This document shows positions 3,173-53,845 of a DNA stretch of 64,000 nucleotides, one piece after another. The notes beneath the pieces are model-generated. The model had not been told where the DNA came from. It made no database searches and saw only the letters and a program-made list of their open reading frames with translations. The stretch covers positions 82,349 through 146,348 of the forward strand of contig JAEEON010000075.1 in the NCBI GenBank assembly GCA_016284305.1, written 5' to 3'. This stretch comes from Bacteroidales bacterium (lineage in GTDB: Bacteria > Bacteroidota > Bacteroidia > Bacteroidales > F082). The translations under genes were made by a program, and so were the position numbers. Each line of letters opens with the position of its first letter. Positions within the stretch are counted from its first letter, which is position 1.

Positions 3173-3175
3173 GAG

Positions 3176-3210
3176 TTTAGAATTTAGAATTTAGAATTTA
3201 GAATTTAGAG
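3176..3210 (+). repeat. 7-bp tandem repeat (TTTAGAA), about 5 copies
   Basis: tttagaa x4 plus tttagag between yidD stop and S41 peptidase start. Confidence 0.97.
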
Positions 3211-3233
3211 ATATTTAATACATAAAAAATAAG

Positions 3234-6439: not shown

Positions 6440-6459
6440 GCACCTCAACCATTAATAAC

Positions 6460-6942
6460 ATGAAGAAACAACAATTCATCTCCGATTATGTCATTTATGA
6501 TGACGAGAAAGAGCTTGAGCTCAAGGATGCCGAGCTGTTAAGCCAGGCTCACGAGGCAGTTCAGGGTTCTTATGCCTCGTACTCCCATTTTCATGTTGGG
6601 GCAGCAGTACGGTTGTTGAACGGGGTGGTCGTCAAGGGAGCCAACATCGAAAATGCCGCCTATCCCAGCGGCTTATGTGCCGAGCGGGTGGCTTTGTTTG
6701 CGGCCCAGGCACAGTACCCCGATGTGCCTATCGAGGCCATCGCCATCACTGCAGAATCGGAGCACAACGAAATCGACGAGCCCATCGCTCCTTGTGGCGC
6801 CTGCCGCCAGGTAATGGTCGAAGCCGAACAACGCTCACAGCGCCCTTTGCGCATCATCTGCCAGGGTCATAAAGGAGCTATCATGGTTTTTGATGGCATC
6901 GAGACGCTCATGCCTTTTATCTTCTTGACTAAATTCTTATGA
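6460..6942 (+). CDS. cdd: cytidine deaminase
   Basis: VGAAVRLLNGVVVKGANIENAAYPSGLCAERVALFAA...PCGACRQVM; ATG at 6460 (the ORF track extends too far upstream). Confidence 0.95.
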   Translation: MKKQQFISDYVIYDDEKELELKDAELLSQAHEAVQGSYASYSHFHVGAAVRLLNGVVVKGANIENAAYPSGLCAERVALFAAQAQYPDVPIEAIAITAESEHNEIDEPIAPCGACRQVMVEAEQRSQRPLRIICQGHKGAIMVFDGIETLMPFIFLTKFL

Positions 6943-7346
6943 TCTCCCTATTGAGAATCGCATTCACCAAGGAATTCGTGCTGAAATTCCTGAAGTTCGG
7001 TGTCGTCGGGTTCTCCGGCGTGTTCGTCAACTTCGGAGTGACTTGGCTTTTCAAGGAGATCTTCAAGCTGAACAAGTATGTCAGCAACATTCTTGGTTTC
7101 GTCGTCGCTGCCACCACCAACTACCTGCTCAACCGATGGTGGACCTTTCAAAGCAACAACCCCGAGGTCGGTGTAGAATATGCCAAGTACTTCCTCATCT
7201 CCATCATTGGATTGGGAATCGACACCTTGACCGTCTATCTGCTCAACGGCAAGCTGAAATGGAACTTTTACCTCAGCAAAGTATTTGCCATAGGTGCTGC
7301 CACACTATGGAACTTCTTCGGGAACCTACTGTTCACCTTCTCCTAA
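6939..7346 (+). CDS. GtrA family membrane protein
   Basis: FLKFGVVGFSGVFVNFGVTWLFKEI...NYLLNRWWTFQS, typical GtrA. Confidence 0.92.
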   Translation: MISLLRIAFTKEFVLKFLKFGVVGFSGVFVNFGVTWLFKEIFKLNKYVSNILGFVVAATTNYLLNRWWTFQSNNPEVGVEYAKYFLISIIGLGIDTLTVYLLNGKLKWNFYLSKVFAIGAATLWNFFGNLLFTFS

Positions 7347-7354
7347 CTTCTTAC

Positions 7355-7374
7355 TTCTGTCTTCTAACTTCTCT
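7355..7374 (-). repeat. copy A of exact 20-bp repeat AGAGAAGTTAGAAGACAGAA
   Basis: Identical to 8671-8690; overlaps the 3' end and stop codon of the PAS gene. Confidence 0.95.
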
Positions 7375-7693
7375 CAAAATGCGGCATCTCCTCCGGAAGG
7401 ATCATCGAGAACTCCACTAAACCAGCAGGTTTGCCCTCTTCTCCCTCCTCATACCAAGGAGTCTGGAAGATCAACTTCTTCTTTCCCTTTTTCGAGATGG
7501 TATAGACATTGGAGACGTTGGCCTCAAGCATATGGCAGATCATCGCCCATGACTTGGGGTTATGGCATTGTTCGAGGTTGCGTCCACGGGCATCGCCGTT
7601 GACCTCGATGGAGCTGTCGTTTTGGTAGATCACGTTGCCGTCTTTGTCGCTGACGGTGATGGCAGGATTCACTCCTTTGAAGAAATCGATCAT
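7364..7693 (-). CDS. single PAS-domain protein
   Basis: FFKGVNPAITVSDKDGNVIYQNDSSIEVNGDARGRNLEQCHNPKSW, PAS-like; no output domain. Confidence 0.75.
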   Translation of the reverse strand: MIDFFKGVNPAITVSDKDGNVIYQNDSSIEVNGDARGRNLEQCHNPKSWAMICHMLEANVSNVYTISKKGKKKLIFQTPWYEEGEEGKPAGLVEFSMILPEEMPHFERS

Positions 7694-7703
7694 AGTTGAT
7701 AGT

Positions 7704-8669
7704 TTATTCGTTAGTAGTTAAGTCTATAGTAAGAACGATCGGCTGACTTTGTGCACAAACGACACCAATGCCGTTCTGCACATTGGAATACACCTGAACC
7801 GGTTCCATGAACATCCCAAGGACACTCCCTTGGTCGGTTTGTTGATAGGCGTTTAGAGATTTTTGATACTGAAAAAGATGCTGATCCACACGACTTACGA
7901 GCAGCGTAAAGGGCTCATAAAACTCCGCCCCGTAATGATCAACACTCATCGTGATGGAATACTCTTTCCCATCGAAATAGGCATCGCTGAAAGGATTGTA
8001 GCCTTTCCGTGCGTAATACTCCGAACCACCAAAGAGGTCATCGACGTGCACGATATTCATGAGGTCTTGAAAAACCGGGTCCTTGGTGACAAACCCATCC
8101 AATGCACCTTGAGGGTCAAGGTTATAATAGTCGGCACCGACAGGGTCCTTGATTTTCAACTGGAAAGACGCCGTATTATATGTATGGTCCTCTGAATACT
8201 GGATATGAATGGTGTCGAAACCAATCACCTCGGGGGCAAGAGGCATCGTGATTTCGGCCACTGCCACATCGTCAAACTCGCTCGAGCTCACCTCGAAACG
8301 CAGCTCGTCCCCTTCGCAAAGCAAGTAGGAACCCTCGCAATAGGTGAAGCCATACTCCAACTCCTGTGTAATCTCATCCGTGCCATACCACTCAACGTTG
8401 TAATACGTCATGGAATCCCTTACCTGAAGTGCCTCCTTGAATTCTCCATTCACAAACAGGTCCACCTCCACATCTTTCACTCGATGATCCTTTTGCGTCT
8501 CTATATAAAAAGAGCTTTTCTCCACCGAAAGGCGTGCCGGTTCACCCACCTTTTGGATGCCGTTAACCACGATCTTTATTTCCTCGTCCACATCCTCAAA
8601 AGGAATCACTTTCTCGCACGAGGCCAAGGCCAACAAAGCCATCCCGAATATAATTATGTATCTCTTCAT
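7704..8669 (-). CDS. DUF4249 domain-containing lipoprotein
   Basis: Lipobox LALASCEK; immunoglobulin-like N-terminus; directly downstream of a TonB receptor. Confidence 0.82.
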   Translation of the reverse strand: MKRYIIIFGMALLALASCEKVIPFEDVDEEIKIVVNGIQKVGEPARLSVEKSSFYIETQKDHRVKDVEVDLFVNGEFKEALQVRDSMTYYNVEWYGTDEITQELEYGFTYCEGSYLLCEGDELRFEVSSSEFDDVAVAEITMPLAPEVIGFDTIHIQYSEDHTYNTASFQLKIKDPVGADYYNLDPQGALDGFVTKDPVFQDLMNIVHVDDLFGGSEYYARKGYNPFSDAYFDGKEYSITMSVDHYGAEFYEPFTLLVSRVDQHLFQYQKSLNAYQQTDQGSVLGMFMEPVQVYSNVQNGIGVVCAQSQPIVLTIDLTTNE

Positions 8670-8670
8670 T

Positions 8671-8690
8671 TTCTGTCTTCTAACTTCTCT
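8671..8690 (-). repeat. copy B of exact 20-bp repeat AGAGAAGTTAGAAGACAGAA
   Basis: Identical to 7355-7374; lies in sense just upstream of the DUF4249 ATG. Confidence 0.95.
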
Positions 8691-8691
8691 T

Positions 8692-11148
8692 TTAAAACTT
8701 ATACTGCCAACTCACCGTTGGAATAAACGGGAAAATGCAAATTTGCGACAACACCTTTTCTGACTGATAGGTGCCATCAGGATACTGCACGTTATATTCC
8801 CTTGGAATCACTACGAAAGGATTGTTGTGCATCAAGGTATTATAGATGTTGATGCTGAAAATACGTTCGCAATGCTTTTTCTGCTTATGGAAGTTAGCCA
8901 CCAAATCGAGTCGTTGGTAACTGCTAAAGCGATAATTGTTGCGGTTCTCGATATAACCGATAGTAGGTGCATAACTACCCAATCCATGATAATGTTGGAA
9001 GGCCATGGTGGCACAGTTTCCCGTGCTATAAACCCAAGTCGCACCCACATCAATTCGTTTGTTGAACTCATACATCAGCACCACGTTGATATCGTGTCGC
9101 CGGTCATATTTTGCAGGGAACACCTTGCCAAAGTTCAGTTCCTGTCCAGGGCGGTCAAACAGTCGATCGGAATGCGACCAAGTATAGCCGACCCATCCCG
9201 TGAACTTGCCCACGGTTTTTTGGGCAAACAACTCGATGCCATACGACCAGCCATCACCCATGACCACCTTGTCTTGCCAGCCCGTCTGGTCGAGTGTGAA
9301 AAACGAGGCGCCGTCCTTGTATTCCATCACGTTGTTCATCTTCTTGAAATAGCCTTCCACCGAGAACTCGAAATCCTTCCAATTGTAGAAAGCTCCGACG
9401 GCCACCTGATGCGAGTTCATTGGAACGATCCTACCCGTCACTGGCACCCAAAGGTCCGTGGGGAGGCTGATGGCATTGCTCGAAAGCAGGTGGATGTATT
9501 GGCTCATGTATGCATATCCAGCTTTCAGCGACAAGTCCTCCGTCACCAAGGCCCTCAGACTCAAGCGAGGCTGGAGGCTATGATAAGTCTTTTTATCGAC
9601 CGAGAAGGTGGAGTAATGCAAGCCCGTGTTCAGTTTGAAGAAGTTGTTGATGTCCCAGTTGTCCTCGATATACAAATCGTTTTCCAATGCACGGATCTTT
9701 GAGTTATCCATCACAGTATCAAACACAAAGTCACTTGCTCCAGCATCGACACTCGACATATGGATTCCCGTAGCGGTAGGGTTATAGGCATGATAGGTGA
9801 TATTGGCTCCAAACTTCACATCATGATTTTCGTGAGGCTTGTAGTCGAAGTCGGCCTTGGCACTGACATCATAAATACCTGAATGCAGCCCTATCTCCAT
9901 GCTTTCCTTATAGCCATTATAGTTTTCCCCTGATATGGAGTTCTTTGTTTCAGAGGAAAAGCCTGCATTCAGTTTATGACGATATTGCGTGTAGGCACCG
10001 GTGACATTCATAAAGAGGTTGGGGTTGATGACATGGTTCCACCGTAATGCAGCGATACGATTGCCCCAGGCCCAATTGATGTTCAGGTTCTCTTCTCCGT
10101 AGGATTGGTATTCTTCATGATAAGTGTTTTCCTTATACCGCATCTTGGCATAAACCTTGTCGTCGCCCGAATACACGCTCAGGAAAAGACGGTCTTTGTC
10201 GGAGAACTTATGATTGACTTTTAGGTTGAAGTCATAGAAATAATAACCACCGAATGCCCTAGCGTTGTCACCTTCCCGTTTAGCGATATAATTCATGATG
10301 GGAGCGGTAAAGAGGTCGTAATAGGTGCGCCGGAACGAGAAGTTGAAGGAGGTTTTGCCTTTGACAATCGGTCCTTCCACGTTCACTTTGGAAGCAATGA
10401 GGCCGATGCTGAAGTTGCCGTGATAGTCATACATGTCGCCATCCTTCATGCGCACATCGACCACCGACGAGAGGCGGCCACCGAAGCGGGCAGGAAAATT
10501 GCCTTTGTAGAGGGTGACATTCTTGACGGCATCGGAGTTGAAGGCGGAGAAGAAGCCCGCGGCATGATCGACCTTGTATAGCGGGACGCCATCAAGAAGG
10601 ATGAGGTTCTCGTCGGGGCCACCGCCGCGGACGTACATTCCCGCAGAGCCTTCCGTACCCGACTGAACTCCCGGAAGAAGCTGCAAAGCCTTGATAACAT
10701 CGCTCTCGCCAAACAAAGCCGGTATCTTCTTCAGCTGCGTCACAGGCAACTCAATGGCACTCATCTGAGAACCCTTCACATGGTTATCAACAGCCCGAGC
10801 TGTCACCGTAACCTCTGCCAGTTCGTTGGACTGAACCAGCTTCACGTTGATTACCGTATCCTTGACGAGTTCAAATTCAGCCTCATAGGGTTTATAGCCC
10901 ACGAAGGAAGCCCGAAAAGCCACCTTGCCCTCGGCTAGTTTCAACGAGTAAAAGCCAAAATTGTTCGTCACCGAACCCGCCATGGTCTCAGCATTATAAA
11001 TTGAGGCTCCCAAAAGAGTCTCTTGGCTCTTGGCATCAGTCACATAACCACTGATAGTGTGAGTCTTCTTGGCATTTTGAGCGACAAGATGCCCTTGAAG
11101 AAACACAGCGAATGCCAACAACAACGTACAAAGTACAGATCGCATCAT
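8692..11148 (-). CDS. TonB-dependent receptor with N-terminal carboxypeptidase-like regulatory domain
   Basis: HTISGYVTDAKSQETLLGASIYNAETMAGSVTNNFGFYSLKL; plug LPGVQSGTEGSAGMYVRGGGPDENLILLDGVPLY; C-terminal SWQYKF. Confidence 0.95.
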   Translation of the reverse strand: MMRSVLCTLLLAFAVFLQGHLVAQNAKKTHTISGYVTDAKSQETLLGASIYNAETMAGSVTNNFGFYSLKLAEGKVAFRASFVGYKPYEAEFELVKDTVINVKLVQSNELAEVTVTARAVDNHVKGSQMSAIELPVTQLKKIPALFGESDVIKALQLLPGVQSGTEGSAGMYVRGGGPDENLILLDGVPLYKVDHAAGFFSAFNSDAVKNVTLYKGNFPARFGGRLSSVVDVRMKDGDMYDYHGNFSIGLIASKVNVEGPIVKGKTSFNFSFRRTYYDLFTAPIMNYIAKREGDNARAFGGYYFYDFNLKVNHKFSDKDRLFLSVYSGDDKVYAKMRYKENTYHEEYQSYGEENLNINWAWGNRIAALRWNHVINPNLFMNVTGAYTQYRHKLNAGFSSETKNSISGENYNGYKESMEIGLHSGIYDVSAKADFDYKPHENHDVKFGANITYHAYNPTATGIHMSSVDAGASDFVFDTVMDNSKIRALENDLYIEDNWDINNFFKLNTGLHYSTFSVDKKTYHSLQPRLSLRALVTEDLSLKAGYAYMSQYIHLLSSNAISLPTDLWVPVTGRIVPMNSHQVAVGAFYNWKDFEFSVEGYFKKMNNVMEYKDGASFFTLDQTGWQDKVVMGDGWSYGIELFAQKTVGKFTGWVGYTWSHSDRLFDRPGQELNFGKVFPAKYDRRHDINVVLMYEFNKRIDVGATWVYSTGNCATMAFQHYHGLGSYAPTIGYIENRNNYRFSSYQRLDLVANFHKQKKHCERIFSINIYNTLMHNNPFVVIPREYNVQYPDGTYQSEKVLSQICIFPFIPTVSWQYKF

Positions 11149-40812: not shown

Positions 40813-42090
40813 TTAATGGGAAGTGATGGTGGTATAGCCGATAAGTTCGTCGTAGCCTTTGTTGGCATTATAATAGTAAAAATAGAGGCGATACAAGTTA
40901 AAGGTGTCCCAGTGGTTACCTGCAGTAAGGTCGGTGGAAACCACACCGGTGTCACGGTCTGCAGTGACAAACATGAAATTGTAATAGCCTTGTTTGAGCA
41001 GGAGTTGACAGAGGTAGCCACCGAGTTGGTAGTCGTAATGCATGAGGTTGCGCTCGTCGAAATTCCAATCGTTGATGGCACCCATCACATAGAGGTCCTC
41101 GTGTGTCAGAGGGGTCGGCCAACGCAGGAAGATGTTTACCCAGGCATAGTCGGCCTCGGTATCGGTCTCACGACCTTCGTTGGCGATGTAAATGTATTTC
41201 TCACCATAGATGTCCTCATAAGTGATATAAGGTTTTCGGGCTCGCGGTTCACAGATGGCGTAGTCAACGACATAATAGTCATCCGTTTGATAGATGCGGG
41301 CAATGTTTTCCGATTGGAAATAGAAGTTGCTGAAGTTGAGGCGACGGTATTGGTTGGCTCCTTCAAAGACCGTTTGAGGCTGATGTTCGTAAGAGATGTA
41401 GTCGGGATAGACAAAAGAGGGTTTCAGGCCTATGGTGGCATTGTCCCACCGACCGTTTTGCCGTATGGTCATATTTCCAAATTGTTGGATATTGCCCGTC
41501 ATGATGCTAGGCATGGTCACTTTCACGTTGAGTTGTTGGTGGGTATCGCTGAGGCTCAAGTCGTCGCAATAGCGAGGCACCGAAACCTCGATGGAGGCTT
41601 TCTCGTCGAAAACCATGTAACGGCGAGTGAAGAAGATGTTTTCTTCTTTAAGGTCATCGGCATAAACGATGAGCAGGTAATTTCCTGAGACCACGGGCAT
41701 CATATCCTCTTCAGGGAAGGTGAGTTTATAATGGGCATAGTCGATGAGGGTATTTCTCGAGAATTGGATGTCGTCAATACGGCCATAGTCGAAACCGGTA
41801 GCATAGTTGATTCGTTGGATGTCGGTGGGATACCAATCATTGGTGCAGTGGATAAAAGTATAGTTGAGCACATCGGCTTCATTACCGAAGAGGTCGAAAG
41901 CGAGGGTAAGGCGGTATGCAGGGTTATCCAAGGGGATAAGCGGTTCTTTGGTCTGGTCGCCATCGGCATAAAGCAACACCGTTTTCACATTATCCTTGTA
42001 GTCGAGGTTATGGCAAGGAAGGTCGAAAGCTTGAGGATAAGTGTTCAAGGCCATGCCAAGGAAAAGGACAAGGAAGAAGATTTTTTTCAT
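40813..42090 (-). CDS. DUF5103 domain-containing protein
   Basis: MKKIFFLVLFLGMALNTYPQ signal; FIHCTNDWYPTDIQRINYATGFDYGRIDDIQFSRNTLIDYAHYKLTFP. Confidence 0.85.
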   Translation of the reverse strand: MKKIFFLVLFLGMALNTYPQAFDLPCHNLDYKDNVKTVLLYADGDQTKEPLIPLDNPAYRLTLAFDLFGNEADVLNYTFIHCTNDWYPTDIQRINYATGFDYGRIDDIQFSRNTLIDYAHYKLTFPEEDMMPVVSGNYLLIVYADDLKEENIFFTRRYMVFDEKASIEVSVPRYCDDLSLSDTHQQLNVKVTMPSIMTGNIQQFGNMTIRQNGRWDNATIGLKPSFVYPDYISYEHQPQTVFEGANQYRRLNFSNFYFQSENIARIYQTDDYYVVDYAICEPRARKPYITYEDIYGEKYIYIANEGRETDTEADYAWVNIFLRWPTPLTHEDLYVMGAINDWNFDERNLMHYDYQLGGYLCQLLLKQGYYNFMFVTADRDTGVVSTDLTAGNHWDTFNLYRLYFYYYNANKGYDELIGYTTITSH

Positions 42091-42120
42091 CGTTTTTTCG
42101 GCTTTACTAGTTAAGCATTG

Positions 42121-42128
42121 CAAAATTA
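42121..42128 (-). promoter_or_regulatory. -7 element TAATTTTG (DUF5103 gene)
   Basis: TAnnTTTG, divergent with 42142. Confidence 0.5.
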
Positions 42129-42141
42129 CGAAAAAAGATGC

Positions 42142-42149
42142 TATCTTTG
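42142..42149 (+). promoter_or_regulatory. -7 element TATCTTTG
   Basis: TAnnTTTG 32 nt upstream of the 42181 ATG. Confidence 0.5.
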
Positions 42150-42180
42150 CAGGTCAATAAAGCATGATAAATCATTTGCA

Positions 42181-42966
42181 ATGAAAAAGTCCATCCAATT
42201 TCTGGTCGTAGCGGTGTTGCTGTTCGCCAGTTTTCCCTTGAAGGCTCAGACCATCGGCTTTGAGAGTCCGATTCGAGAAAAGAACCTTTTCATCGGTTTC
42301 AAGGTCGGGGTTTCTGCCATGGACGCGGCCTACACCAGGACCATCAACAATAAGACGAAAGATCAATTTGTCAACCATTCGATTCTCTACCAGCATCCTG
42401 ATTCCTTACAGATAATGAATTGTTTAGCAGCTGGAATCACCTTGGAACACACCCTCCCATATTTCTCTTATGGTTTGGACTTGATGGTCACGGGTATCAA
42501 TGCACAACAGAATAATTCTGACACCACGTTCCGGTTTGCTACACAGGACTCGGCTTTCTTTCTTCACGCAAGAGTTCCCGTCAGGTTCTATCTCTTGAAA
42601 GAAAAGACCGTGATGCCGTATTTGATGTTGGCACCTGACTTCAGCACCTACGTTCACTACGGCAATGAGTCGTTTGCCATCAACGGCTATTCGGAATGGA
42701 ATGAATACGATATCAAATGGGGATCCCGTAACGCCAGGGCGTTTCATCTCAATTTGGTTGCCGGGGCTGGCATGGTGGTCAAGATCAACGTGGGCGACTA
42801 TCAGATGTGGGGGCGTTTTGAGGCTGCATACAATCTCGGGTTGCTCAACACAGTTAAAGGCTTTGCTGAAGGCATTGAGATTACCAGGAAGATGCGTGGG
42901 TGGGAAGCCACGATTGGCCTATCGTTCCCATTGTTCAAGAATCCCAGCTATTCATGGATGATGTAA
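42181..42966 (+). CDS. hypothetical outer membrane beta-barrel-like protein
   Basis: Signal peptide MKKSIQFLVVAVLLFASFPLKAQ; alternating amphipathic segments. Confidence 0.75.
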   Translation: MKKSIQFLVVAVLLFASFPLKAQTIGFESPIREKNLFIGFKVGVSAMDAAYTRTINNKTKDQFVNHSILYQHPDSLQIMNCLAAGITLEHTLPYFSYGLDLMVTGINAQQNNSDTTFRFATQDSAFFLHARVPVRFYLLKEKTVMPYLMLAPDFSTYVHYGNESFAINGYSEWNEYDIKWGSRNARAFHLNLVAGAGMVVKINVGDYQMWGRFEAAYNLGLLNTVKGFAEGIEITRKMRGWEATIGLSFPLFKNPSYSWMM

Positions 42967-42986: not shown

Positions 42987-43028
42987 AAAAAATAACCGCC
43001 TTAGTTCAAACTAAGGCGGTTATTTTTT
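42987..43028. terminator. bidirectional intrinsic terminator overlapping the 3' end of the HIT gene
   Basis: AAAAAATAACCGCCTTAGTT-CA-AACTAAGGCGGTTATTTTTT, about 20-bp arms. Confidence 0.95.
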
Positions 43029-43398
43029 GTTGGATCTCTTGGAACTCCTCGGGAGTAAGTTTCAGATGTTCCTTTTTGAAGTCGAGGTCACCCTCATTGG
43101 TGATAGGCACCAGATGAATATGGGCGTGAGGCACCTCAAGACCGATGACGGCGACGGCGATGCGTTTGCAGGGCATGGCTTTCTCGACGGCTTGGGCGAC
43201 TTTTTTCGCAAAGACCATCATTTGTCCGAGTTCTTCGTCTTCGATATTGAAGATGTAGTCGGTTTCGTGTTTTGGCACGACCAAGGTATGGCCTTTAGAG
43301 AGCGGATTGATGTCGAGGAAGGCGAAAAAACGCTCATTCTCGGCTATTTTATAGCAAGGGATCTCACCTTGTATGATTCTTGAGAAAATGGTTGCCAT
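43006..43398 (-). CDS. HIT family protein
   Basis: FSRIIQGEIPCYKIAENERFFAFLDINPLSKGHTLVVPKHETDYIF...PHAHIHLVPI. Confidence 0.94.
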   Translation of the reverse strand: MATIFSRIIQGEIPCYKIAENERFFAFLDINPLSKGHTLVVPKHETDYIFNIEDEELGQMMVFAKKVAQAVEKAMPCKRIAVAVIGLEVPHAHIHLVPITNEGDLDFKKEHLKLTPEEFQEIQQKITALV

Positions 43399-43406
43399 AG
43401 CTCAAA

Positions 43407-43880
43407 TTATCGGGTTATTTCGAGGATTTCAAAATACATCTTGCCAGCGGGCACGGTGATTTCGGCGACTTCGCCCACTTTCTTACCCAGGAGACCTTGA
43501 CCTATAGGTGAGTTGATGGAGATTTTACCGGCTTTGAAGTCGGCTTCTTTTTCCGGCACGATGGAATAGGTCATGACCATATTGGTTTTGGTGTTCTTTA
43601 TTTTGGCTGTGGAATAGAGGAGCACCTTGGAAGTGTCGATTTTAGATTCGTCGAGGATACGGGCATTGAAGATCAGGTCTTGCAGGTCGGCAATTTTAGC
43701 TTCGAGGAGGCCTTGGGCTTCTTTAGCTGCATCGTATTCGGCATTTTCTGAAAGGTCGCCTTTGTCGCGTGCTTCGGCGATGGCTTGGACGATCCGTGGG
43801 CGTTCACGGAGGATCAAATCGTCGAGTTCGTCTTTCAGTCTTTGTAACCCTTCGGGGGTAAAATATTTGATTTCTGACAT
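43407..43880 (-). CDS. greA: transcription elongation factor GreA
   Basis: YFTPEGLQRLKDELDDLILRERPRIVQAIAEARDKGDLSENAEYDAAKEAQG. Confidence 0.97.
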   Translation of the reverse strand: MSEIKYFTPEGLQRLKDELDDLILRERPRIVQAIAEARDKGDLSENAEYDAAKEAQGLLEAKIADLQDLIFNARILDESKIDTSKVLLYSTAKIKNTKTNMVMTYSIVPEKEADFKAGKISINSPIGQGLLGKKVGEVAEITVPAGKMYFEILEITR

Positions 43881-43904: not shown

Positions 43905-43935
43905 AAAAAAGAGACCCTTATCGAAATAAGGGTCT
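43905..43935 (-). terminator. hairpin AGACCCTTAT-TTCG-ATAAGGGTCT followed by T-tract, in the greA leader or porV 3' region
   Basis: 10-bp perfect stem, UUCG loop and CTCTTTTTTC on the minus strand, downstream of a TATCTTTG box and upstream of greA. Confidence 0.85.
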
Positions 43936-43990: not shown

Positions 43991-45061
43991 TTAGAAATTA
44001 AGTCTCGCACCCACGCTGTGCGTACCACCATAGCTGGCAGTGGTGCGGTAAGAGTAGTCAACAGCGAACATAGGGGCGTTCTCATTCTTCGAGATCGGGA
44101 CCTGGACAGAGACGCCAGCGCTGAAGCCGTTGTTGAGGTTCATGCAAGCATCATCCAAGATTCCACTGAAGAGGCCACTTTCATAGGTGTAACCAGTACG
44201 AACGAGGAAGTATTCTTTCCATCCGTACTCGAGACCCAGGACGTATTGGTCTTTCGTGAAGGAGTTGGAGATGAAGTTACCGGCCACGGTCAGGCGAGAG
44301 GTCTCACCCAGATGGAAGTCGTAGGCGGCAGCAATGCTCAACTGCGTAGGCAACTCAAACTGGTCGGCACGTTGGATAACGGTGTGTTGCAGAGAGGAGT
44401 TGGGGAGCAGGAAAGCCTTGATTGACAAACCGTCGCCAGAGAAGGTCATGGTAGGTCCAATGTTCTTCAAGGTGATGCCGAAGTGGATGTTGTCGAAAGG
44501 ACCGGTCACATATTGGATACCAGCGTCGAGGGCGACACCCATGGCACTCATGTTAGCAATGGACTCGTTGATGATCTTCAAGTTGAAACCACCACTGATA
44601 CTGTTGGAGAAAGTCTTGGCAAAAGCCAGGTTGATGTTAATCAGGTTAGGCTTATAGGTACCGATACCACCTTCGGGGCTCTCGACTGTGGTTTGAGGCA
44701 CGGTGCCGAGGTTGAACGACATGAAGCCGAGACCCAGCACGCTTGACTCACCCACGCGGACGGCCAAACCGAACGACGAGACTTTGATACCGCTGCCTGA
44801 CAGCCAATCGGTATGAGAGAAGTTGACGTCCATGCTACGGACGTTGCTGATACCAGCAACGTTACCATAGATGGCTTCAACACCTTTGACGAAGGACATG
44901 CCTGCGTTGCCGAAGCCAGCAGAAGCAGCCCAAGGATTGATTAACAATTCTGATGCACCAGCTTGACCTGAACGGTCCTCATTACCTGCAAATGCCTTAG
45001 GAGCGTTGAATCCCAAAAGGATCACAAGGCTCAAAACGATATATTTAAATGATTTCTTCAT
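43991..45061 (-). CDS. PorV/PorQ family protein (T9SS-associated outer membrane beta-barrel)
   Basis: GASELLINPWAASAGFGNAGMSFVKGVEAIYGNVAGISNVRSMDVNFSHTDWLSGSGI. Confidence 0.85.
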   Translation of the reverse strand: MKKSFKYIVLSLVILLGFNAPKAFAGNEDRSGQAGASELLINPWAASAGFGNAGMSFVKGVEAIYGNVAGISNVRSMDVNFSHTDWLSGSGIKVSSFGLAVRVGESSVLGLGFMSFNLGTVPQTTVESPEGGIGTYKPNLININLAFAKTFSNSISGGFNLKIINESIANMSAMGVALDAGIQYVTGPFDNIHFGITLKNIGPTMTFSGDGLSIKAFLLPNSSLQHTVIQRADQFELPTQLSIAAAYDFHLGETSRLTVAGNFISNSFTKDQYVLGLEYGWKEYFLVRTGYTYESGLFSGILDDACMNLNNGFSAGVSVQVPISKNENAPMFAVDYSYRTTASYGGTHSVGARLNF

Positions 45062-45097
45062 GATTCTGAAATTTTTAATGTTAGCATTTTACGATAA

Positions 45098-48000
45098 TTA
45101 GAAGGTATTCAAGTCGATTTGACGCATTGCACCGAAGAACTTGATGGTACGTTCGCCGCCACTAGCATTGTCCTTAACGTGGATCAGGTAGAAGCCAGAT
45201 GCCACAGGAGTGTTGGCGAAGTTCGTGAGATCCCATTCGATGGACGGCTCCTCATTATCCTTCTTGAACTGTCTGATCTTCGTACCACTGATGTTATAGA
45301 TGGTGACGACGCAGTTGTTGGGAAGGTTGGTGATCTTCACCTTGTTGACCAAGGCGTTGGCCTCGTAGGAGCTGTAAGCATAGTATGGGTTAGGCACCAC
45401 AGAGATCAGATCCAAGTCACTTTCAATCTTTTCAGGATCGTTCATGACAGGATCGAGACCCTCGATCGAGAACTCGAACTTAGGATATTGATTGTTCACA
45501 TCCAAGCCTGGATAGACTGAGTCAAGGTCAACGTAGGAGTAACCGCGATCATAAGGTTTAGCGATACGGATGCGGATCTTAGCATCGTTACCTTCAGGCA
45601 CCCAATTATTGTTTTCTTTATCCCATTCAAAACCTTCAACACGCATAGGCATACCGACCCAGAGGCATTGACGCCACAATCTCTTGCCATACTGAGTAAC
45701 GAGGTTATTCGAAGCTGCAGTCTGGATGGCATTCAACACGGTGAACAGATACTTACCACCATCGTAGGCCGGGCTGTTGAAGTCCTTGTATGGGAAGTTC
45801 GGGGTAGTAGGCACGTCAGTTGGACGATCTAAGCCCCAGATATAAACGAAGTGCTTACCACCGAGGACAGGTTCAAGGTCAACTTGACGGAACAAGGCGG
45901 GATCCAACTCAGGTTCAGAGGTACCTTCGACAGTTCCCTTCTTCAGCGCAGGAGGATTGAACATCAAGTCGCGGCCATTCAGATCCTCGAGATAGGAATC
46001 CTCACCATAGAGCAGGTTCAGACGCATACCAGATTCAACGTCGATGACATAACCTGGGAACCAACCCATACCTTGGGCGGCAATGTAGTTAGGATCGTCA
46101 GGATTGTCTGAGGCCTTGATCAGCGAATCCGGATTCTGTGTGTAGTCCCAAACACCATCATAAGGTTTACCATCCTTGTCGATAGAAGGAGCGCGACGAA
46201 TGTCGAAACGCTTCACACCATTTTGTGACAGGTTCTCATCCATACACATCTCAACCACAGGGCAACGGGTCCACTTGGAACGGTCGGAAGTAAAGACAAT
46301 ATCGATACTGGAGAGGCGTGAGAAATAAGAATCATCACGGAAGATGTCTCTTGGCAGCGGGCCAGGATTGTTCTTAGCAGTGTTGCTCACCGTAGTAAGG
46401 ATATAAGGAGCCCAAGTGCGGTTTGCAATCTTCTCGTAATTCTCATGCGGATCCCAAGCCGTACTGATACCACCAGTGGAACTGGTCATGTTATAGTCGT
46501 GGTTATAAGTATCGTCTTGGTCAACGTACGTACCAGAACGGATCCAGTTCAACACTGAGGAAGCGACGTCAACGTCACGAATACCGTCAAGCCAGTGTTG
46601 CGTACTGTCTTGGAAGATCAGTGAGGAGGTAATCATGCCATTGTTGGGGGCGACCACTTCCTTTTGAGGCCTGTTACCGTAGGTAGCGTCATGCGTTGAT
46701 CCCACAAGGATGGCACCAATCTGGAAGGGTTGGTTAATCGACACGGAGATACCGCGATCGAGGAACAATTTCTCATCGGAATAGACCGTGATTGTATCGC
46801 TTTCAAACACCTCATCCGTATCGAGGTCCTTCAGGAACCAGTGGGAGGCCATACGGAGAGCGGAGTCACCGATGACTGACTGGTTGGAGCTGACGCCATG
46901 AGTGTAGTGCGGGAACAAGGTGTCAAACCACAGCTCGTAGTGGTGAGTCTTCACATTCAACGGGTCGATGATCTTCACAGCCAAAGGTCCTTTACCAATA
47001 GTATAACTCGGATGATAGACAATCGGGTAATCGGGGTGACCGAAGACCACTTTTTCGAGCGTATCGGCATTCGGATTACCAAAGGTGATGTGATCATATT
47101 CTCCACCATCTTTGTTGACGATGACGGTGTTAGCCATCTTCTTGGCGAAGAGTTCATCGATAGACTCTTGGCTAAGTTCAATCTCGTTACCACCGTTACC
47201 TTGACCAACGATACGCTTAATGGCCGGGGTGTCACCGTATTGGGCAACAACCTTGGTACCATTCAGGACCTTGTGAGGAACAGCGGTGTAGCAAGAGATG
47301 TTCTTACGTCCTTCGAGGTAAGGTTTCATCTGGCCATAGAGACCATTAATGTCAGCAGGTTCTTGTGAATACGGGAAGTAATTGTTGTAAGCATAAGCCA
47401 CTGCCATGAAGTAATAGGTCTTATGGTTAACCAAAGCGGAACTTTCACCTGTTGAGAACAAGTCTTCAGTAACGACGAAGCTATGGGTGATACCACCATC
47501 AGCACCATTGACCTTCAGTGCAGGAACATTGCCACCGATGTAATTATCCCATTCATAGTTGACGAGGGTAGAAACGTTGTTCTTGATATCGGCTTGGAAG
47601 ACCAGACGAGCTTTGCTGTTGTCGCTAAGTTCATCGGCACCGACTTCGGCGTTAGCCAACTGATACACTTTATAACCTTCGAAACGATAGTACTTATCGG
47701 CGAGAGTACCAAGGGTATCGCCAGGAACGATTTCGGGGATCTGAGGATCGGGCTCAGCATAGCCTTCACGATAGTTGTTGGAGATCGGGCTATTGGAGAG
47801 GTAGATGATCAGTTTCTGGTCGAGCTCACGGATGGTGAGGTCAGGAGCATTAGGACCATCGATGACTTTGAAGCAGTTGTCGAACAGAGCTTGGCACTTA
47901 TCGTCAGTGACGCGCAGCAATTCGACGGAAGCCCAAGCGCCGCCAGAAGTAGCACGGGCCCACGGCACACCGAAAGTAATGTAGTTGACTGCACCAGGTT

Positions 48001-49642
48001 TCAGGGTGAAAGGACCAGCGGACTGCATGAAACGACGGTCATCAGGAGCATTGCCTTCATTCTTTTCGTTCCAGTACTTACCATTGACATTGTAGCCACC
48101 ATTGGGCATCACGCCACCAGTACCCCAGTTGCACGGGTCAGTGTCGCCAGGGAACATGAAGTCGCAAGCAGGACCGACAGCGGCGTTACCACCGGTAGGA
48201 TAACCAGTACCACCGAATTGCATCTTGTTACCATCGCGCCAGAAGGAACGGAGCAGCAGGTAAGTTTCGGCAGCGTTGTCAGGGTCACCCAAAGCGGTAC
48301 TGGAGTTGTTGTGATACAAGAAACGGCGCATACCGAAACGTTCATCATCGACGATGCCATTACCGAAGTTCACACCGTTGATAGAAGCGTCGCAAATCTG
48401 CTCTTTGGAGATGGTATCGCTAATGATAATGGTGTCGCCATCAACAACGTTCGTAGTGGTGTTGATCACATATTTATACTTGGGGTTATCCAAACCGTCG
48501 GCATCCATATAAGGGCCTTGGAAGAAGTCAACACCGACCGCCGGAGGCTGGTTGCCGTAGGCTTCAGGTTCACCGCTACCGTCAGTATCGAGACCATTGT
48601 AACCATAACCCAGACCACGGGCGACGTCGCAACCGACGTAGTCATCTTTGGCATAACCAAGGTCAACGTCAGTCCAGGGGCAGAAGAAGGTACCCGTCAA
48701 CTCATAAGTTGAACGGTTAATGATTTCGTAACTGCAGAACGACATGTTGTTGATTTCGTCGTTGGTCGAGAAGGCGAAAGCTTGGGCACGGACTTCGAGA
48801 CCGATAGCAGCACCATTGGATTCGGTATGGGAGTTACCCTTATCATTGAACACCCACCAGAGGGTTTGGTCACCTTTCAGAACTTGGTCAGCAAGGATGG
48901 AGCCATGCACGGTACCGCCATGTTCTTCTTCCATGGTCGGGATCTTGGTGTGGCAGAGTTCGTTTTCGATGTCGTAGTACGGGTAGTCACCTTGAGTATA
49001 GTCATATAAACCATCACCATCTCTATCAAAGAAAGGAGCCATGTAGTGGCTGACACCAGAGATGTTACCACCGACAGTTTCCGGATGGGCAGGCCATTCG
49101 GCGATAGACTTAGGCGGGGCGGGGTAATCCTCAGTAGGTTGGAACACACCGCTAACGGGGTCGCAGTGGCTAAGGAACTCGTCAACTTCGGCACGGGTAA
49201 TCTTAAAGAGTTGGTCCCAACGAGCGCAGGTGATGTCGTCGATGGAAGCACCTTCGAGGTTCAGAGGGCCAGTCCAGAAGTCGTTACCATCTTGACGGAA
49301 ACGCACGGCGGCGCACTTCAGCTGGTTGTTGATATCGACACCAGCGATCCAGAGGGAGCCAGCGTAGAGTGAGGTGGCGGATCCGTTGGCGGGGATATAA
49401 TACTGTGAGCCGACTCCACCAGGGAGGTCCCACCACATATCACCACCAGCATTGATACGCGTTCTGACGTTGTTGATGTTCAACCACTCAAAAGCTGAGG
49501 AAGGAGTACATCCGGCTGTAGTCTGCTTCAGGTCGCGGGTACCTTTGTTACCACGGTCACCTTTAAACATCTCAGCCTTTCCGGGATTTGTCACCCCTAC
49601 TATGAGGAGCGCAACAAACAATAGACGTAATATATTTTTCAT
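45098..49642 (-). CDS. 1514-aa secreted/surface protein with atypical T9SS-like C-terminal domain
   Basis: Signal peptide; C-terminus VVPNPYYAYSSYEANALVNKVKITNLPNNCVVTIYNISGTKIRQFKKDNEEPSIEWDLTNFANTPVASGFYLIHVKDNASGGERTIKFFGAMRQIDLNTF. Confidence 0.88.
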   Translation of the reverse strand: MKNILRLLFVALLIVGVTNPGKAEMFKGDRGNKGTRDLKQTTAGCTPSSAFEWLNINNVRTRINAGGDMWWDLPGGVGSQYYIPANGSATSLYAGSLWIAGVDINNQLKCAAVRFRQDGNDFWTGPLNLEGASIDDITCARWDQLFKITRAEVDEFLSHCDPVSGVFQPTEDYPAPPKSIAEWPAHPETVGGNISGVSHYMAPFFDRDGDGLYDYTQGDYPYYDIENELCHTKIPTMEEEHGGTVHGSILADQVLKGDQTLWWVFNDKGNSHTESNGAAIGLEVRAQAFAFSTNDEINNMSFCSYEIINRSTYELTGTFFCPWTDVDLGYAKDDYVGCDVARGLGYGYNGLDTDGSGEPEAYGNQPPAVGVDFFQGPYMDADGLDNPKYKYVINTTTNVVDGDTIIISDTISKEQICDASINGVNFGNGIVDDERFGMRRFLYHNNSSTALGDPDNAAETYLLLRSFWRDGNKMQFGGTGYPTGGNAAVGPACDFMFPGDTDPCNWGTGGVMPNGGYNVNGKYWNEKNEGNAPDDRRFMQSAGPFTLKPGAVNYITFGVPWARATSGGAWASVELLRVTDDKCQALFDNCFKVIDGPNAPDLTIRELDQKLIIYLSNSPISNNYREGYAEPDPQIPEIVPGDTLGTLADKYYRFEGYKVYQLANAEVGADELSDNSKARLVFQADIKNNVSTLVNYEWDNYIGGNVPALKVNGADGGITHSFVVTEDLFSTGESSALVNHKTYYFMAVAYAYNNYFPYSQEPADINGLYGQMKPYLEGRKNISCYTAVPHKVLNGTKVVAQYGDTPAIKRIVGQGNGGNEIELSQESIDELFAKKMANTVIVNKDGGEYDHITFGNPNADTLEKVVFGHPDYPIVYHPSYTIGKGPLAVKIIDPLNVKTHHYELWFDTLFPHYTHGVSSNQSVIGDSALRMASHWFLKDLDTDEVFESDTITVYSDEKLFLDRGISVSINQPFQIGAILVGSTHDATYGNRPQKEVVAPNNGMITSSLIFQDSTQHWLDGIRDVDVASSVLNWIRSGTYVDQDDTYNHDYNMTSSTGGISTAWDPHENYEKIANRTWAPYILTTVSNTAKNNPGPLPRDIFRDDSYFSRLSSIDIVFTSDRSKWTRCPVVEMCMDENLSQNGVKRFDIRRAPSIDKDGKPYDGVWDYTQNPDSLIKASDNPDDPNYIAAQGMGWFPGYVIDVESGMRLNLLYGEDSYLEDLNGRDLMFNPPALKKGTVEGTSEPELDPALFRQVDLEPVLGGKHFVYIWGLDRPTDVPTTPNFPYKDFNSPAYDGGKYLFTVLNAIQTAASNNLVTQYGKRLWRQCLWVGMPMRVEGFEWDKENNNWVPEGNDAKIRIRIAKPYDRGYSYVDLDSVYPGLDVNNQYPKFEFSIEGLDPVMNDPEKIESDLDLISVVPNPYYAYSSYEANALVNKVKITNLPNNCVVTIYNISGTKIRQFKKDNEEPSIEWDLTNFANTPVASGFYLIHVKDNASGGERTIKFFGAMRQIDLNTF

Positions 49643-49680
49643 AGTATCTGTGATTATTCGTTTAAGTTACACCTCATGGA

Positions 49681-52600
49681 TTAGAAGTTAAAGCTTGCGC
49701 CAATTTTAATTTGACGAGGAGTAGAGTAGTTGCCACCTCTGTTCACGTAGATCTGATACATCTCGATGAAGGCTTGAGGATCGACTTGGGTACGAATTTG
49801 GCTTTGATACTTGGGTGAGGTAAGGTAGCCGTCATCGTCCGGGTCACCGGTAGCGTTGTAAACCGAGAGGATATTCTTGGCGTTCAAGAGGTTGGTGAAG
49901 TTGACATAGACGTTCACGAAAGCTTCATGTCCGGTCTTGCCTTCTTTTCTTCCACCGAGGGTGAAATAGAAGTCCTTGTCGATACGAAGGTCGATCTTGA
50001 AGGAAGCAGGCATTCTGGAGCCGAAGTAGGTACCAGCGAGGAGGTAGTTACCGCCAGAGATGGGGGAAACGACCGTACGGGAAGCGGTATATGGGGTACC
50101 AGAACCACCAGTGATGGTCATAGAAGCACCAGCGTTAGCAAGGATCTGCAATGGGGTCTTGCCTGACTTCTCACGGTTGATGACGGGGCCGTCATACTTC
50201 TTACCCGAGCCGAAACGGTAGTCGAGGTTAAGGGAGAAGTTGTGACGACGGTCAACACTGGTCGGGAAGGTTGATCTCAGGTTAGGAACACCTGCGTTGA
50301 TCAAGGCGGCAGCCGTAGAGGTGGAAGCACCGGTCATGTTGGCATACTGCAAGGTATAGCTGGCACGGACGCGGACGTTCTTGGTACGGCGGAGGTCATA
50401 TTCAGCGGTAAGACCCTTGACGGTACCGAAGTCGAGGTTGCTGAAGGAGGTGTAGTCCTTAGGATAAGCACCCGTGAGGCGGTACATCTGGATCATGTTA
50501 CGAATCTCATTATAGTAGGCCGTGATGGTCAATGAAGAGGTGTTGGTCAGTTTCTGGGTGAAACCGAGTTCGTAGTCGATGGTCTGCATCGGCTTCAGGT
50601 TCGGGTTGGCAATGGTGCTGGAGACGTCGTTGAAGTAGTAATAGGTCAGCGGGCTAACGAAGTAGGAGCTGGTAGGACGTTGGGTCAGCACATCATAGTG
50701 AGCAAAGAACAAAGCCTCATCCGAAATCGGGAAGGAGAAGGAGATACGAGGCATGAAGTTCCAAGCGGGTTTGTAGTCCTCGAAGGAATTCATATCGACT
50801 CTTTGTTGTTCAGCGTTACGGACCCATGGGGAGATACCTGAACCCTTGTCGAGAGCGGTCGGTGAGGAGATCTCGGCACCATTGGCATTGTACCAAGTGT
50901 TGCCATTACGATAACCGACGATTTCATTGATGTCGGTAATTTTGTTGACATAGATAGCGTAGTCGTCACCGATGTTGCCAGGGATGGTGAATTGCGGCAA
51001 GTTGGAAGCGCCGTCGATGCCACCTCTTCTGTAGTCGCCAGCGGTATAGTGGTCGTAGAGGATGAACGGATCTTTCAGGACGTACTGGTTAGCGTCGAAG
51101 CGGTCAGCACGGAGACCGATTTGGAAGATCAGGTCTTTGAAAGCGAACTTATCCTGGATATAGCCAGCGATATAGATAGGTTGGCTAGAGCCAACGGGAC
51201 GGGTGTAATAGGTTCTGTTTCTGAGGTCGGTAGCGGTCTCGGTGAAGAAGTCCTCCAAGGTAGGACGTTCGCCCCAGGAGTGTTTCTTGCCGTCGTAGGT
51301 GTAGCCATAGTAGGACACATAGAAGCTACCGTCGCGGGTGAGTTCATCGGGAGCGAACATGCTGATGTCGAAGCCGCCGTTGAGGTGACCTTTCTGCAGG
51401 TTGCCGTTCTCATCATAGTACATGATGGATTGGTCGTTGAAGTCGTAGGAGTCAACGAGGATATATTCCGTACCTTCGAGCGGGAGGCCCATGGCATTAC
51501 GGAGGTTGATGTCGAAGACATACTGAGCGTCGCCGTCATAGAGTCTGTGGAACCAAACGGTGTCAACATAGCCATCGTTGCTGGAGGCGTATGGGTTAGC
51601 CACATCGAGCTGAGAGATATGGAAGTTGGCAAGGTTACGCATGAGCAGCCAGTAGTTGGTGCTATAGCCGATAGCGCTGGAGTTACGTTGCTCATATTGG
51701 AAACCGAGTTTGATTTCGTGGGAGCTTTCACCCTTGCCGATGGTCATGGAGGCGTTGACGTTGAGTGCGATCTGGTCGCTGAGGCTCTTGCCATAGCCTG
51801 ACATGAGGGTACCAGGGGCAGCGTAGAGGCCGTAGATGGCATCTGGGGAGTCACCATTAAGCAGGGCTTTACCGATCATCATGTTATCGAAGTTGTCGAA
51901 GTAGCCCAGAGCGCCGTATGGTTTATAGAGGTCCAGATAGTTCTCGGTATATTTGGCCAGCAGCGGGTTGAACTGTGAGGGATAGAAATCGACGAGGGTG
52001 TCATAGTCCCAGGAGTTCAGCACATTGACGTTGGTGAAGTTCATGTAGTTGGAGCCATCCACTAAGACGGAGTCCACGTTCGCAACTTGGAAGGTCGGGG
52101 TTTTGTGGACGATATACTTACCCAGGTTACCATAGGCGAAGATGTTGTCCCAGAGGTCAGGGTCGCCATATTCGTTGGTAGAACGGGTGTAGTCGGCCTG
52201 GATGCTATAGTAGAAGTTACGGATCAGCGAGGTGCTTTCAGGAGCCGTGGGGAAGCGTTGGGTAAACTTGACGTAACCACGGGTGGTACCTGACTCGTCG
52301 ATCGAGTTCTTGGCCGTATTGAAGTAGGAGTATGAGCTAGCGAAGTCATGGCCTCTATATCTGTAGAACGAACCGCCGAAGGTGAGGTTGATGGTTTCGG
52401 TGGTACGGACGTTGATATTACCAGAGAGGTTGATGGAGTAGTTGCTCGAGTTGGTGGAGAATCTCGAATAGACGAGGTCATCCTTTCTGGTGTAGGAGGC
52501 GTGTTGATAGGTACCGGAGCCGAGGCCGGAGAGGACCAGCGGGGTTTCTTCGATGGTCTTCTGCCAATCTTCTGTGGCGGTGTAGAAACCGGTAGCTGAG

Positions 52601-53442
52601 AGGGCGCCCACTTTGTTGTAGGCAAGGTCACCAGCGAGGAAGAAGCCGAGGAGAGCGGTCTCCGCGTTCTTACCCTTGATGAGTGGTCCTTGGACGCTGA
52701 AGCCCAAACGGTTTCTGCCATAGCCTTCGACGGAGGTCTCGAGTTCCAGTCCGAAGCCGAAGGTACGGCTTGGGCCCTTGGTGGTCAAGTTGATGATACC
52801 GCCCATGGCGTCACCGTACATGGCCGGGGTACCACCAAGGATGACGTCCACCTGGTCGATGGCGCTTTGGGGCACGCTGGCACTACCGATGACCTTCACA
52901 CCATCGATGTAATAGACCGCGCTTTCACGAGAACCACGGACACTACCGACTTCACCGTCAACGGACACAACGCCACCGACGGTAGAAGCGACACCGGAAG
53001 CAGAACGGTTAGGCAACTTAGCAATTTCCTCTGCCGTGATGGACGCACCTGAGGTGGTGTTATCCTTCGAGATCAGAGGCACTTCATAATCGATGACGGT
53101 GACCTCAGTCAAGCTGATGGCGCCACTGGTCATCTTAATGTTCCAATCGGTGATCTTGTTGGCTGGAATAATGATGCCGTTCAAGACATAATTGTTGTAG
53201 CCGACGAAGGTCGCCTTCAAATCATACGTTCCCGGAGGGATCGGGTTGATGTCGTAGTTACCATCGAAATCCGATGTGGCGCCACCAATCATCGTACCAC
53301 CTTTCTCGAGGACGATGTTTGCAAATGACACGGGCTCACCAGTTTCATCAGTAACCTTTCCTTTGAGTCGCCCTGTTTGCGCGAAGGCCAGCGAACAAGC
53401 GGCCAACACAATCGCAAGGGTCATTAGTAAATTTCTAAACAT
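49681..53442 (-). CDS. TonB-dependent receptor, 1253 aa
   Basis: GRLKGKVTDETGEPVSFANIVLEKGGTMIGGATSDFDGNYDI; plug VDVILGGTPAMYGDAMGGIINLTTKGPSR; long barrel ending IKIGASFNF. Confidence 0.95.
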   Translation of the reverse strand: MFRNLLMTLAIVLAACSLAFAQTGRLKGKVTDETGEPVSFANIVLEKGGTMIGGATSDFDGNYDINPIPPGTYDLKATFVGYNNYVLNGIIIPANKITDWNIKMTSGAISLTEVTVIDYEVPLISKDNTTSGASITAEEIAKLPNRSASGVASTVGGVVSVDGEVGSVRGSRESAVYYIDGVKVIGSASVPQSAIDQVDVILGGTPAMYGDAMGGIINLTTKGPSRTFGFGLELETSVEGYGRNRLGFSVQGPLIKGKNAETALLGFFLAGDLAYNKVGALSATGFYTATEDWQKTIEETPLVLSGLGSGTYQHASYTRKDDLVYSRFSTNSSNYSINLSGNINVRTTETINLTFGGSFYRYRGHDFASSYSYFNTAKNSIDESGTTRGYVKFTQRFPTAPESTSLIRNFYYSIQADYTRSTNEYGDPDLWDNIFAYGNLGKYIVHKTPTFQVANVDSVLVDGSNYMNFTNVNVLNSWDYDTLVDFYPSQFNPLLAKYTENYLDLYKPYGALGYFDNFDNMMIGKALLNGDSPDAIYGLYAAPGTLMSGYGKSLSDQIALNVNASMTIGKGESSHEIKLGFQYEQRNSSAIGYSTNYWLLMRNLANFHISQLDVANPYASSNDGYVDTVWFHRLYDGDAQYVFDINLRNAMGLPLEGTEYILVDSYDFNDQSIMYYDENGNLQKGHLNGGFDISMFAPDELTRDGSFYVSYYGYTYDGKKHSWGERPTLEDFFTETATDLRNRTYYTRPVGSSQPIYIAGYIQDKFAFKDLIFQIGLRADRFDANQYVLKDPFILYDHYTAGDYRRGGIDGASNLPQFTIPGNIGDDYAIYVNKITDINEIVGYRNGNTWYNANGAEISSPTALDKGSGISPWVRNAEQQRVDMNSFEDYKPAWNFMPRISFSFPISDEALFFAHYDVLTQRPTSSYFVSPLTYYYFNDVSSTIANPNLKPMQTIDYELGFTQKLTNTSSLTITAYYNEIRNMIQMYRLTGAYPKDYTSFSNLDFGTVKGLTAEYDLRRTKNVRVRASYTLQYANMTGASTSTAAALINAGVPNLRSTFPTSVDRRHNFSLNLDYRFGSGKKYDGPVINREKSGKTPLQILANAGASMTITGGSGTPYTASRTVVSPISGGNYLLAGTYFGSRMPASFKIDLRIDKDFYFTLGGRKEGKTGHEAFVNVYVNFTNLLNAKNILSVYNATGDPDDDGYLTSPKYQSQIRTQVDPQAFIEMYQIYVNRGGNYSTPRQIKIGASFNF

Positions 53443-53596
53443 ACCTTATAATTTTATGTTATACTGCTTTTAGTGCATTAAAAAGACTCCAAAATTATAA
53501 ACTTTTTACAAAGCTCACAAGAAAAATCTACTTTTAGTATCATTTTTTTGTTTATAAAATTTTTAACATTTCATGAAGACAATGAAAATTAGGTGG

Positions 53597-53845
53597 TTAT
53601 CCACGTTCCAGATGACGATTCAATTCACGCGCACGCTTACGATCCTCCTTCATCATTTTCTTTGTTTTGGGAGCCTGCTGTTCATAATGCCTTGTTTTCG
53701 CACGCTCGTACTCTTTTCGGGCTTCCGCCTCCTGTTTTTCCATCATCCTTTCCGCCTTGCGCATCGCGCGACTGGAGCGATGGCCAGCACATGAAGAAAG
53801 CGCCAACAAGATGACACCTATTAATATATAAGACCATTTTTTCAT
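53597..53845 (-). CDS. small charged lipoprotein of unknown function
   Basis: MKKWSYILIGVILLALSSCAGHRSSRAMRKAERMMEKQEAEARKEYERAK; lipobox plus coiled-coil-like R/E/K region. Confidence 0.7.
   Translation of the reverse strand: MKKWSYILIGVILLALSSCAGHRSSRAMRKAERMMEKQEAEARKEYERAKTRHYEQQAPKTKKMMKEDRKRARELNRHLERG

Follow-up and report, generated by a model that had tools for sequence, protein, structure and literature searches.

A conserved gene trio of Bacteroidota that joins a TonB-dependent receptor, a large exported protein with a PorZ/PorU-like sorting domain and a PorV-family barrel

The stretch of DNA analyzed here (64,000 nucleotides of contig JAEEON010000075.1 from the Bacteroidales assembly GCA_016284305.1, hereafter the window) contains at positions 43991–53442 three consecutive minus-strand genes, whose open reading frames (ORFs) encode, in this order, a TonB-dependent receptor of 1253 amino acids (49681–53442), a 1514-amino-acid exported protein to which we gave the working name BIG (45098–49642), and an outer-membrane barrel of the PorV/PorQ family that is 356 amino acids long (43991–45061). 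Only 38 nucleotides (49643–49680) separate the receptor gene from BIG, and 36 nucleotides (45062–45097) separate BIG from the barrel gene, as a sequence-only reading of the window had described. The three genes are one conserved unit, and we propose, with a probability that we put at roughly 60%, that the barrel and BIG form a dedicated barrel/cargo pair, like PorQ–PorZ or SprF–SprB, which would hold a large ectodomain in place next to a TonB receptor of its own.

The product identities that had been read from the letters agreed with our family searches. The receptor has a signal peptide, a CarboxypepD_reg domain, a plug and a C-terminal β-barrel, with both PF07715 (plug) and PF00593 (barrel) above cut-off. 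BIG has a Sec-type signal (judged by eye) and no lipobox (a lipobox-like string occurred in one of 165 BIG homologues), and the only domain recognized in it is a C-terminal sorting domain (CTD), which narrowly passes the type A model TIGR04183 (23.8 bits against a cut-off of 23). The third protein meets the PorV/PorQ family model NF033709 with 144.1 bits against a cut-off of 90, and the same model matched all 40 trio barrels tested. Scans against Pfam-type and NCBIfam models gave no SusC-family match for the receptor, and SusD, which had likewise been reported as absent, matched none of the nine proteins that we scanned from the trio and its surroundings. With neither a SusC nor a SusD match, we rejected a SusCD reading of the trio.

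We found no promoter-like or terminator-like sites in the two gaps, and after the last gene, between it and greA, lies a rho-independent terminator-like hairpin (43912–43935, minus strand) in which a 10-pair stem is followed by a T run (fold z-score −4.4); the clean gaps and the hairpin were both as expected from the sequence-only reading. Upstream of the trio, the Bacteroidota-type −7 promoter motif (TAnnTTTG) occurs as TAATTTTG at 53490–53497 (minus strand), 55 nucleotides before the start of the receptor gene. Among Bacteroidales loci, this motif was present within 150 bp 5′ of the receptor in 54 of 129 cases, compared with 17.5 expected from shuffled sequences, and it showed no enrichment 5′ of BIG (11/132) or 5′ of the barrel (2/132). 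Because the motif is enriched before the receptor and not before BIG or the barrel, its distribution supports a single transcript for the trio, without proving it. An Rfam scan of the window returned no match.

Linkage of the three genes across the phylum

BIG is present in 122 of 295 genomes of the order, and a profile search recovered it from 184 of 396 genomes of the phylum; it mostly occupies one locus per genome and is kept over many Bacteroidales families. To count linkage we took loci solely on their match to BIG and excluded those cut by contig ends. The receptor–BIG–barrel arrangement, with the same order and strand, was found at all 58 loci sampled from the order (the window not counted), at all 74 loci of named genomes (a set that overlaps the 58), and at 33 of the 36 loci sampled across the phylum, where a receptor homologue likewise lies immediately 5′ of BIG at 33 loci. 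For the reverse test we began with 20 PorV-family genes of a phylum search from which the top PorV matches were excluded: 17 fell in the clade of trio barrels (described in the next section), two were PorQ and one scored nearest to PorV, and 16 of the 17 trio-clade barrels were located in a trio. We also checked eight genomes outside the window's class, in which we counted a BIG-type sorting domain as strong when it scored 75 bits or more. A PorV-family gene lay directly downstream of 30 of the 33 strong domains, and 31 of 36 strong barrels had a BIG-type CTD gene directly upstream, with such a gene within ~8 kb upstream of the remaining five. The barrel family is multi-copy outside the window's class, often with ten or more members per genome. 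Because linkage was found in both the forward and the reverse direction, the arrangement is not due to chance. Homologues that were usually unlinked had been named in advance as the outcome that would speak against a joint function; they turned out to be almost always linked.

The three proteins also diverge in parallel. Distance matrices of the whole proteins gave Mantel r values of 0.93–0.94 (48 modules from the phylum and reverse-test samples), and the CTD alone gave an r of 0.84 with the barrel and with the receptor (48 modules). Together with the linkage and the separate barrel clade, these correlations upheld the proposal that a PorV paralogue, one cargo and one TonB receptor make up a dedicated cassette.

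Because greA and a HIT-family gene (43006–43880, minus strand) also stay downstream of the trio, at about 132–135 of 165 loci, essentially only in Bacteroidales and despite the intervening terminator, part of the local gene order in Bacteroidales is plain synteny. The trio might by the same token be an ordinary outer-membrane-protein operon, held together by slow rearrangement in an order with conserved synteny, whose products have no physical partnership. However, the trio stays together in other classes, where it lacks the greA–HIT neighbors and comes in several copies per genome, and the barrel is still linked where the gene order changes, as at the locus L291; we therefore regard an ordinary operon as very improbable.

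L291 (positions 418–10841 of a locus from another class) is a variant that encodes a 715-amino-acid CTD protein, an 835-amino-acid type A CTD-like protein, a 611-amino-acid exported protein, a TonB receptor and a PorV-family barrel, and five other barrels in the eight-genome check had a similar spacing of 7–8 kb. Two further loci were irregular. At L161:13576–14659 the barrel gene is in two ORFs (173 and 186 amino acids), through a frameshift or an assembly error, and the short contig L206:1–5478 carries the end of BIG, a barrel and, ~900 bp later, the start of a second BIG with no receptor between, which is possibly a tandem arrangement or a chimeric assembly.

The barrel and its partner sorting domain

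The trio barrel fitted none of the more specific models. It scored 67.7 bits against PorV (NF033710, cut-off 250), 64.9 bits against PorQ (NF033711, cut-off 220), 54.1 bits against PorV2 (NF052325, cut-off 325) and 24.8 bits against PorP/SprF (TIGR03519, cut-off 90.55), and it fell outside both the PorV and the PorQ clades in a tree of 119 PorV-family proteins built with a quick method. In this tree, the trio barrels and the related barrels of the reverse test made up one side of a branch (57 rows) with a Shimodaira–Hasegawa-like approximate likelihood-ratio test (SH-aLRT) value of 96, and PorV (30/30, SH-aLRT 100) and PorQ (SH-aLRT 100) were each separate. The trio barrels are, by this phylogeny, a third clade beside PorV and PorQ. 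A disulfide link to GldK of the kind made by SprF (PMC12635249) was ruled out, because not one of the 165 trio barrels had a C-x-C in its last 40 residues, where SprF has its periplasmic tail.

The window comes from a fragmented assembly of 2.6 Mb, whose close named relatives are metagenome-assembled Bacteroidales genomes from herbivore guts. Type IX parts found in this home genome are SprA, PorV (362 bits), PorQ (contig G000:C4, 299 bits), PorZ (609 bits) and, in the window itself, a Plug protein, along with 116 type A sorting domains. Because the true PorV and PorQ are encoded elsewhere in the genome, the trio barrel is, as judged from these matches, neither of the two but an extra member of the PorV family. 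Just upstream of the home-genome porV is a type A CTD gene that is probably porU, and three sampled genomes have a CTD gene of PorU size immediately upstream of the likely porV, which is the same cargo–barrel order as in the trio. Across the order, BIG occurs in 120 of 277 genomes with SprA and in 2 of 18 without it (p = 0.005); of these two, one is an incomplete assembly and the other has SprA candidates that were not scored. The trio is followed, a few genes on, by the gene for the Plug protein (NF052315, 316 bits; 40813–42123, minus strand), and near this is the gene for a predicted exported protein of 282 amino acids that matched no family (42118–42966, plus strand). On the other side of the trio, 154 nucleotides upstream of the receptor gene and on the same strand, is an 82-amino-acid lipoprotein-like ORF (53597–53845, minus strand) without a curated family match; our comparison of neighboring genes covered ORFs of at least 90 amino acids.

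The best PDB profile match of the barrel is PorV of the type IX translocon. The same protein (8gl6, 6h3i) is the best fold match of a model in which the CTD and the barrel were folded as one chain (BIG and the barrel share a frame, and the two in-frame stops between the genes were read through for folding). This chain folded with a predicted local distance difference test (pLDDT) value of 80.7 and a predicted template modeling (pTM) score of 0.79, which came as scores without coordinates or predicted aligned error and are suggestive only. FadL and TodX-type channels were the next fold matches, and the PorV family sits in the FadL superfamily, both of which would suit a barrel that serves as a FadL-type channel for some hydrophobic nutrient, with a PorV likeness unrelated to secretion, in a trio of uptake proteins that are merely co-regulated. 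We consider this quite improbable, given that the top fold and profile matches are to the translocon PorV, that the barrel clade groups with PorV and PorQ, and that the barrel is linked to sorting-domain genes in both search directions.

The partner of the barrel in that chain, the CTD of BIG (residues 1405–1514; 45101–45430, minus strand), falls below the gathering cut-off of PF18962 (17.5 versus 27 bits). Among 40 BIG relatives, TIGR04183 matched 28 at E < 0.01, and the CTD parts of the PorZ and PorU models matched 35 and 12, respectively. A profile of the trio CTDs was run against the home genome, which holds 116 type A CTDs; it retrieved BIG at 142 bits, PorZ as a distant second at 26 bits and one further protein at 20 bits, with no other notable match. 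In the PDB, the best solved relatives of the BIG CTD are PorZ (5m11) and PorU (6za2). It belongs, on sequence grounds, to a PorZ/PorU-type subfamily, and is kin to these proteins rather than to the CTDs of cleaved cargos. The trio CTDs also extend past the terminal lysine strand, with a conserved tail that in BIG comprises residues 1502–1514 (45101–45139, minus strand), ends in MRQIDLNTF, and has Phe as its last residue in 144 of 165 BIG homologues. The third and last notable match to the trio-CTD profile is the sorting domain (G000:C17:17480–17638, 19.8 bits) of a 676-amino-acid protein, which is a possible further retained cargo.

The ectodomain of BIG is well conserved in Bacteroidales, and best so in its N-terminal region (residues 44–850; 47093–49513, minus strand), which is predicted to be β-rich and which AlphaFold2 folded with a pLDDT of 78.6 and a pTM of 0.73. 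A Foldseek search found no convincing solved fold like this region (best TM 0.23), and sequence searches of Pfam, NCBIfam and the PDB with the ectodomain returned nothing usable; some weak glycosidase-like matches were not trusted. A PorZ-like CTD could mean a PorZ-like task. PorZ delivers anionic lipopolysaccharide (A-LPS) to PorU (PMC8545088), and the trio, by analogy with PorQ–PorZ, could serve envelope building as a presenter of a glycan or lipid, with the TonB receptor providing energy or material instead of importing a nutrient. The mostly single locus over many Bacteroidales families is more housekeeping-like than niche-specific and would suit such a task, but outside its CTD the BIG ectodomain has no likeness to PorZ in sequence or fold, and the many copies in other classes better fit a diversity of ligands. 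We judge a role in envelope building unlikely.

A paralogue of the BIG N-terminal region that is 473 amino acids long and has no sorting domain is encoded at L005:8996–10417 (G000:C72, at ~47–50 kb), and 28 nucleotides later comes the gene for a 527-amino-acid protein that has one (7384–8967). No TonB receptor or PorV-family gene adjoins this pair, which is possibly a split version in which the sorting domain is supplied by another protein.

Anchoring or shuttling of BIG

PorZ and PorU are uncleaved and retain their CTDs, PorZ bound to PorQ and PorU bound to PorV (PMC5562754, PMC11285876), and the principle of a barrel that binds a CTD is established for relatives of the trio proteins (PMC10994853, PMC5562754, PMC9143113, PMC12618676). 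A type IX carrier docks at the lateral opening of SprA and grips the CTD through its extracellular loops. Because PorZ and PorU have the CTDs nearest to that of BIG, we prefer a model in which a cognate barrel anchors BIG permanently to one in which BIG is shuttled to the sortase. In the mechanism that we favor, BIG would be made with a Sec signal and would cross the outer membrane via the SprA translocon by means of its CTD, and its own PorV-family barrel would take it up at SprA or just outside. BIG would not be passed on to the PorU sortase and would stay on the barrel as its outer-membrane anchor, a retention that we propose on account of the CTD, which is like the uncleaved ones of PorZ and PorU and has the extra conserved tail. 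The ectodomain may then work alongside the TonB receptor encoded with it, in the simplest case as a partner that captures ligand or gates energized uptake, with no SusD-type lipoprotein involved. The sequence-only reading had suggested a cassette for export and assembly by analogy with PorV, which shuttles cargo to the attachment complex. The dedicated cassette has stood up, through linkage, clade and co-variation, and the shuttling seems the poorer model, since the CTD is nearest to those of the uncleaved PorZ and PorU.

The barrel might also have a smaller part, in which the general PorV extracts BIG from the translocon and the barrel of gene 3 just receives and holds it, never docking to SprA. 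The general carrier of type A cargos, PorV (PMC12635249, PMC10994853), is present in the home genome. The trio barrel may resemble a pure anchor, and its closest counterpart in function, PorQ, is known to anchor PorZ and is not known to dock to the translocon (PMC5562754). On the other hand, a single barrel handles export in type B systems and, as is reportedly thought, anchoring as well (PMC12618676, PMC9143113), and the CTD subfamily of BIG is unlike the generic cargo CTDs that PorV handles. A barrel that acts as an anchor only is in our view rather unlikely.

Several points weigh against a dedicated pair that works with its receptor as we propose. The pass of the BIG CTD against the type A model is marginal, and the general PorV, as the known type A carrier (PMC12635249), could also export BIG. 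In the eight other-class genomes, an adjacent barrel is missing for 3 of the 33 strong CTDs, and the conserved tail is not universal: the 715-amino-acid CTD protein of L291 has a canonical CTD end, and some other-class relatives lack the tail. For the proposed CTD–barrel contact, the overall pTM of 0.79 is only suggestive. The correlated distances are partly due to shared descent, and linkage and correlated divergence are all that ties the receptor to BIG. The main risk to our proposal is that the barrel does no more than anchor BIG, or that the receptor is a mere bystander.

According to the accepted rule, type A cargos have one carrier, PorV, and private barrels exist for type B cargos only (PMC12618676, PMC12635249). 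Dedicated barrels for type B cargos and the annotation 'PorV/PorQ family protein' are already known. Searches of the open-licence literature (subscription papers may differ) for PorV paralogues with TonB receptors or for dedicated type A carriers yielded no account of the trio, and neither in these papers nor in the family libraries did we find a PorV-family clade bound to PorZ-like cargos and TonB receptors. If a third clade of the PorV family is paired one-to-one, across the phylum, with a PorZ-like cargo and a TonB receptor, this would break the one-carrier rule for type A, and it would offer a likely role for many barrels that are now labeled just 'PorV/PorQ family protein'. It would also yield a testable prediction on what separates cleaved from retained sorting domains, and it would suggest that bacteria have, besides SusCD, a type IX-based way to arrange their surface uptake machinery. 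More tentatively, and with the odds somewhat against it, the trio may be a stable three-part uptake machine found throughout the phylum, in which a type IX-exported ectodomain sits uncleaved on its own barrel above a TonB channel and fills the role that SusD lipoproteins have elsewhere. If this were true, PorV–PorU and PorQ–PorZ would be two specialized members of a larger class of barrels with CTD proteins, and type A-like export would be independent of one general carrier.

Comparison with known systems

The closest counterparts of the trio are perhaps PorQ–PorZ and PorV–PorU, in which a PorV-family barrel is likewise paired with a CTD protein and the sorting domains are nearest to that of BIG; the likeness to PorV–PorU extends to gene order, in that the likely porV is preceded by a CTD gene of PorU size just as the trio barrel is preceded by BIG. 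The trio differs from both in that BIG has neither the PorZ nor the PorU ectodomain, in that its barrel is neither PorQ nor PorV, and in the addition of a TonB receptor.

Cargos of type B have dedicated barrel anchors that are usually encoded directly downstream (PMC9143113, PMC12618676), and the trio resembles SprB–SprF and PG1035–PorP in this pairing of one cargo with a cognate barrel of the FadL superfamily, on which the known cargos stay. Unlike in these systems, the CTD of BIG is type A and PorZ-like, the barrel is of the PorV family and lacks the C-x-C tail of SprF, and a TonB receptor is included. With the general PorV, which serves gingipains and RemA, the trio barrel shares its fold, its family and its occurrence in SprA-bearing genomes, but it seems dedicated to a single cargo whose CTD is distinct, and PorV is the carrier for every type A cargo. 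Finally, the trio is like SusC–SusD in combining a TonB receptor with a large co-encoded protein at the surface (as predicted for BIG), and unlike it in that the receptor is not of the SusC family by NCBIfam, BIG is neither a lipoprotein nor a SusD, and an extra barrel is present.
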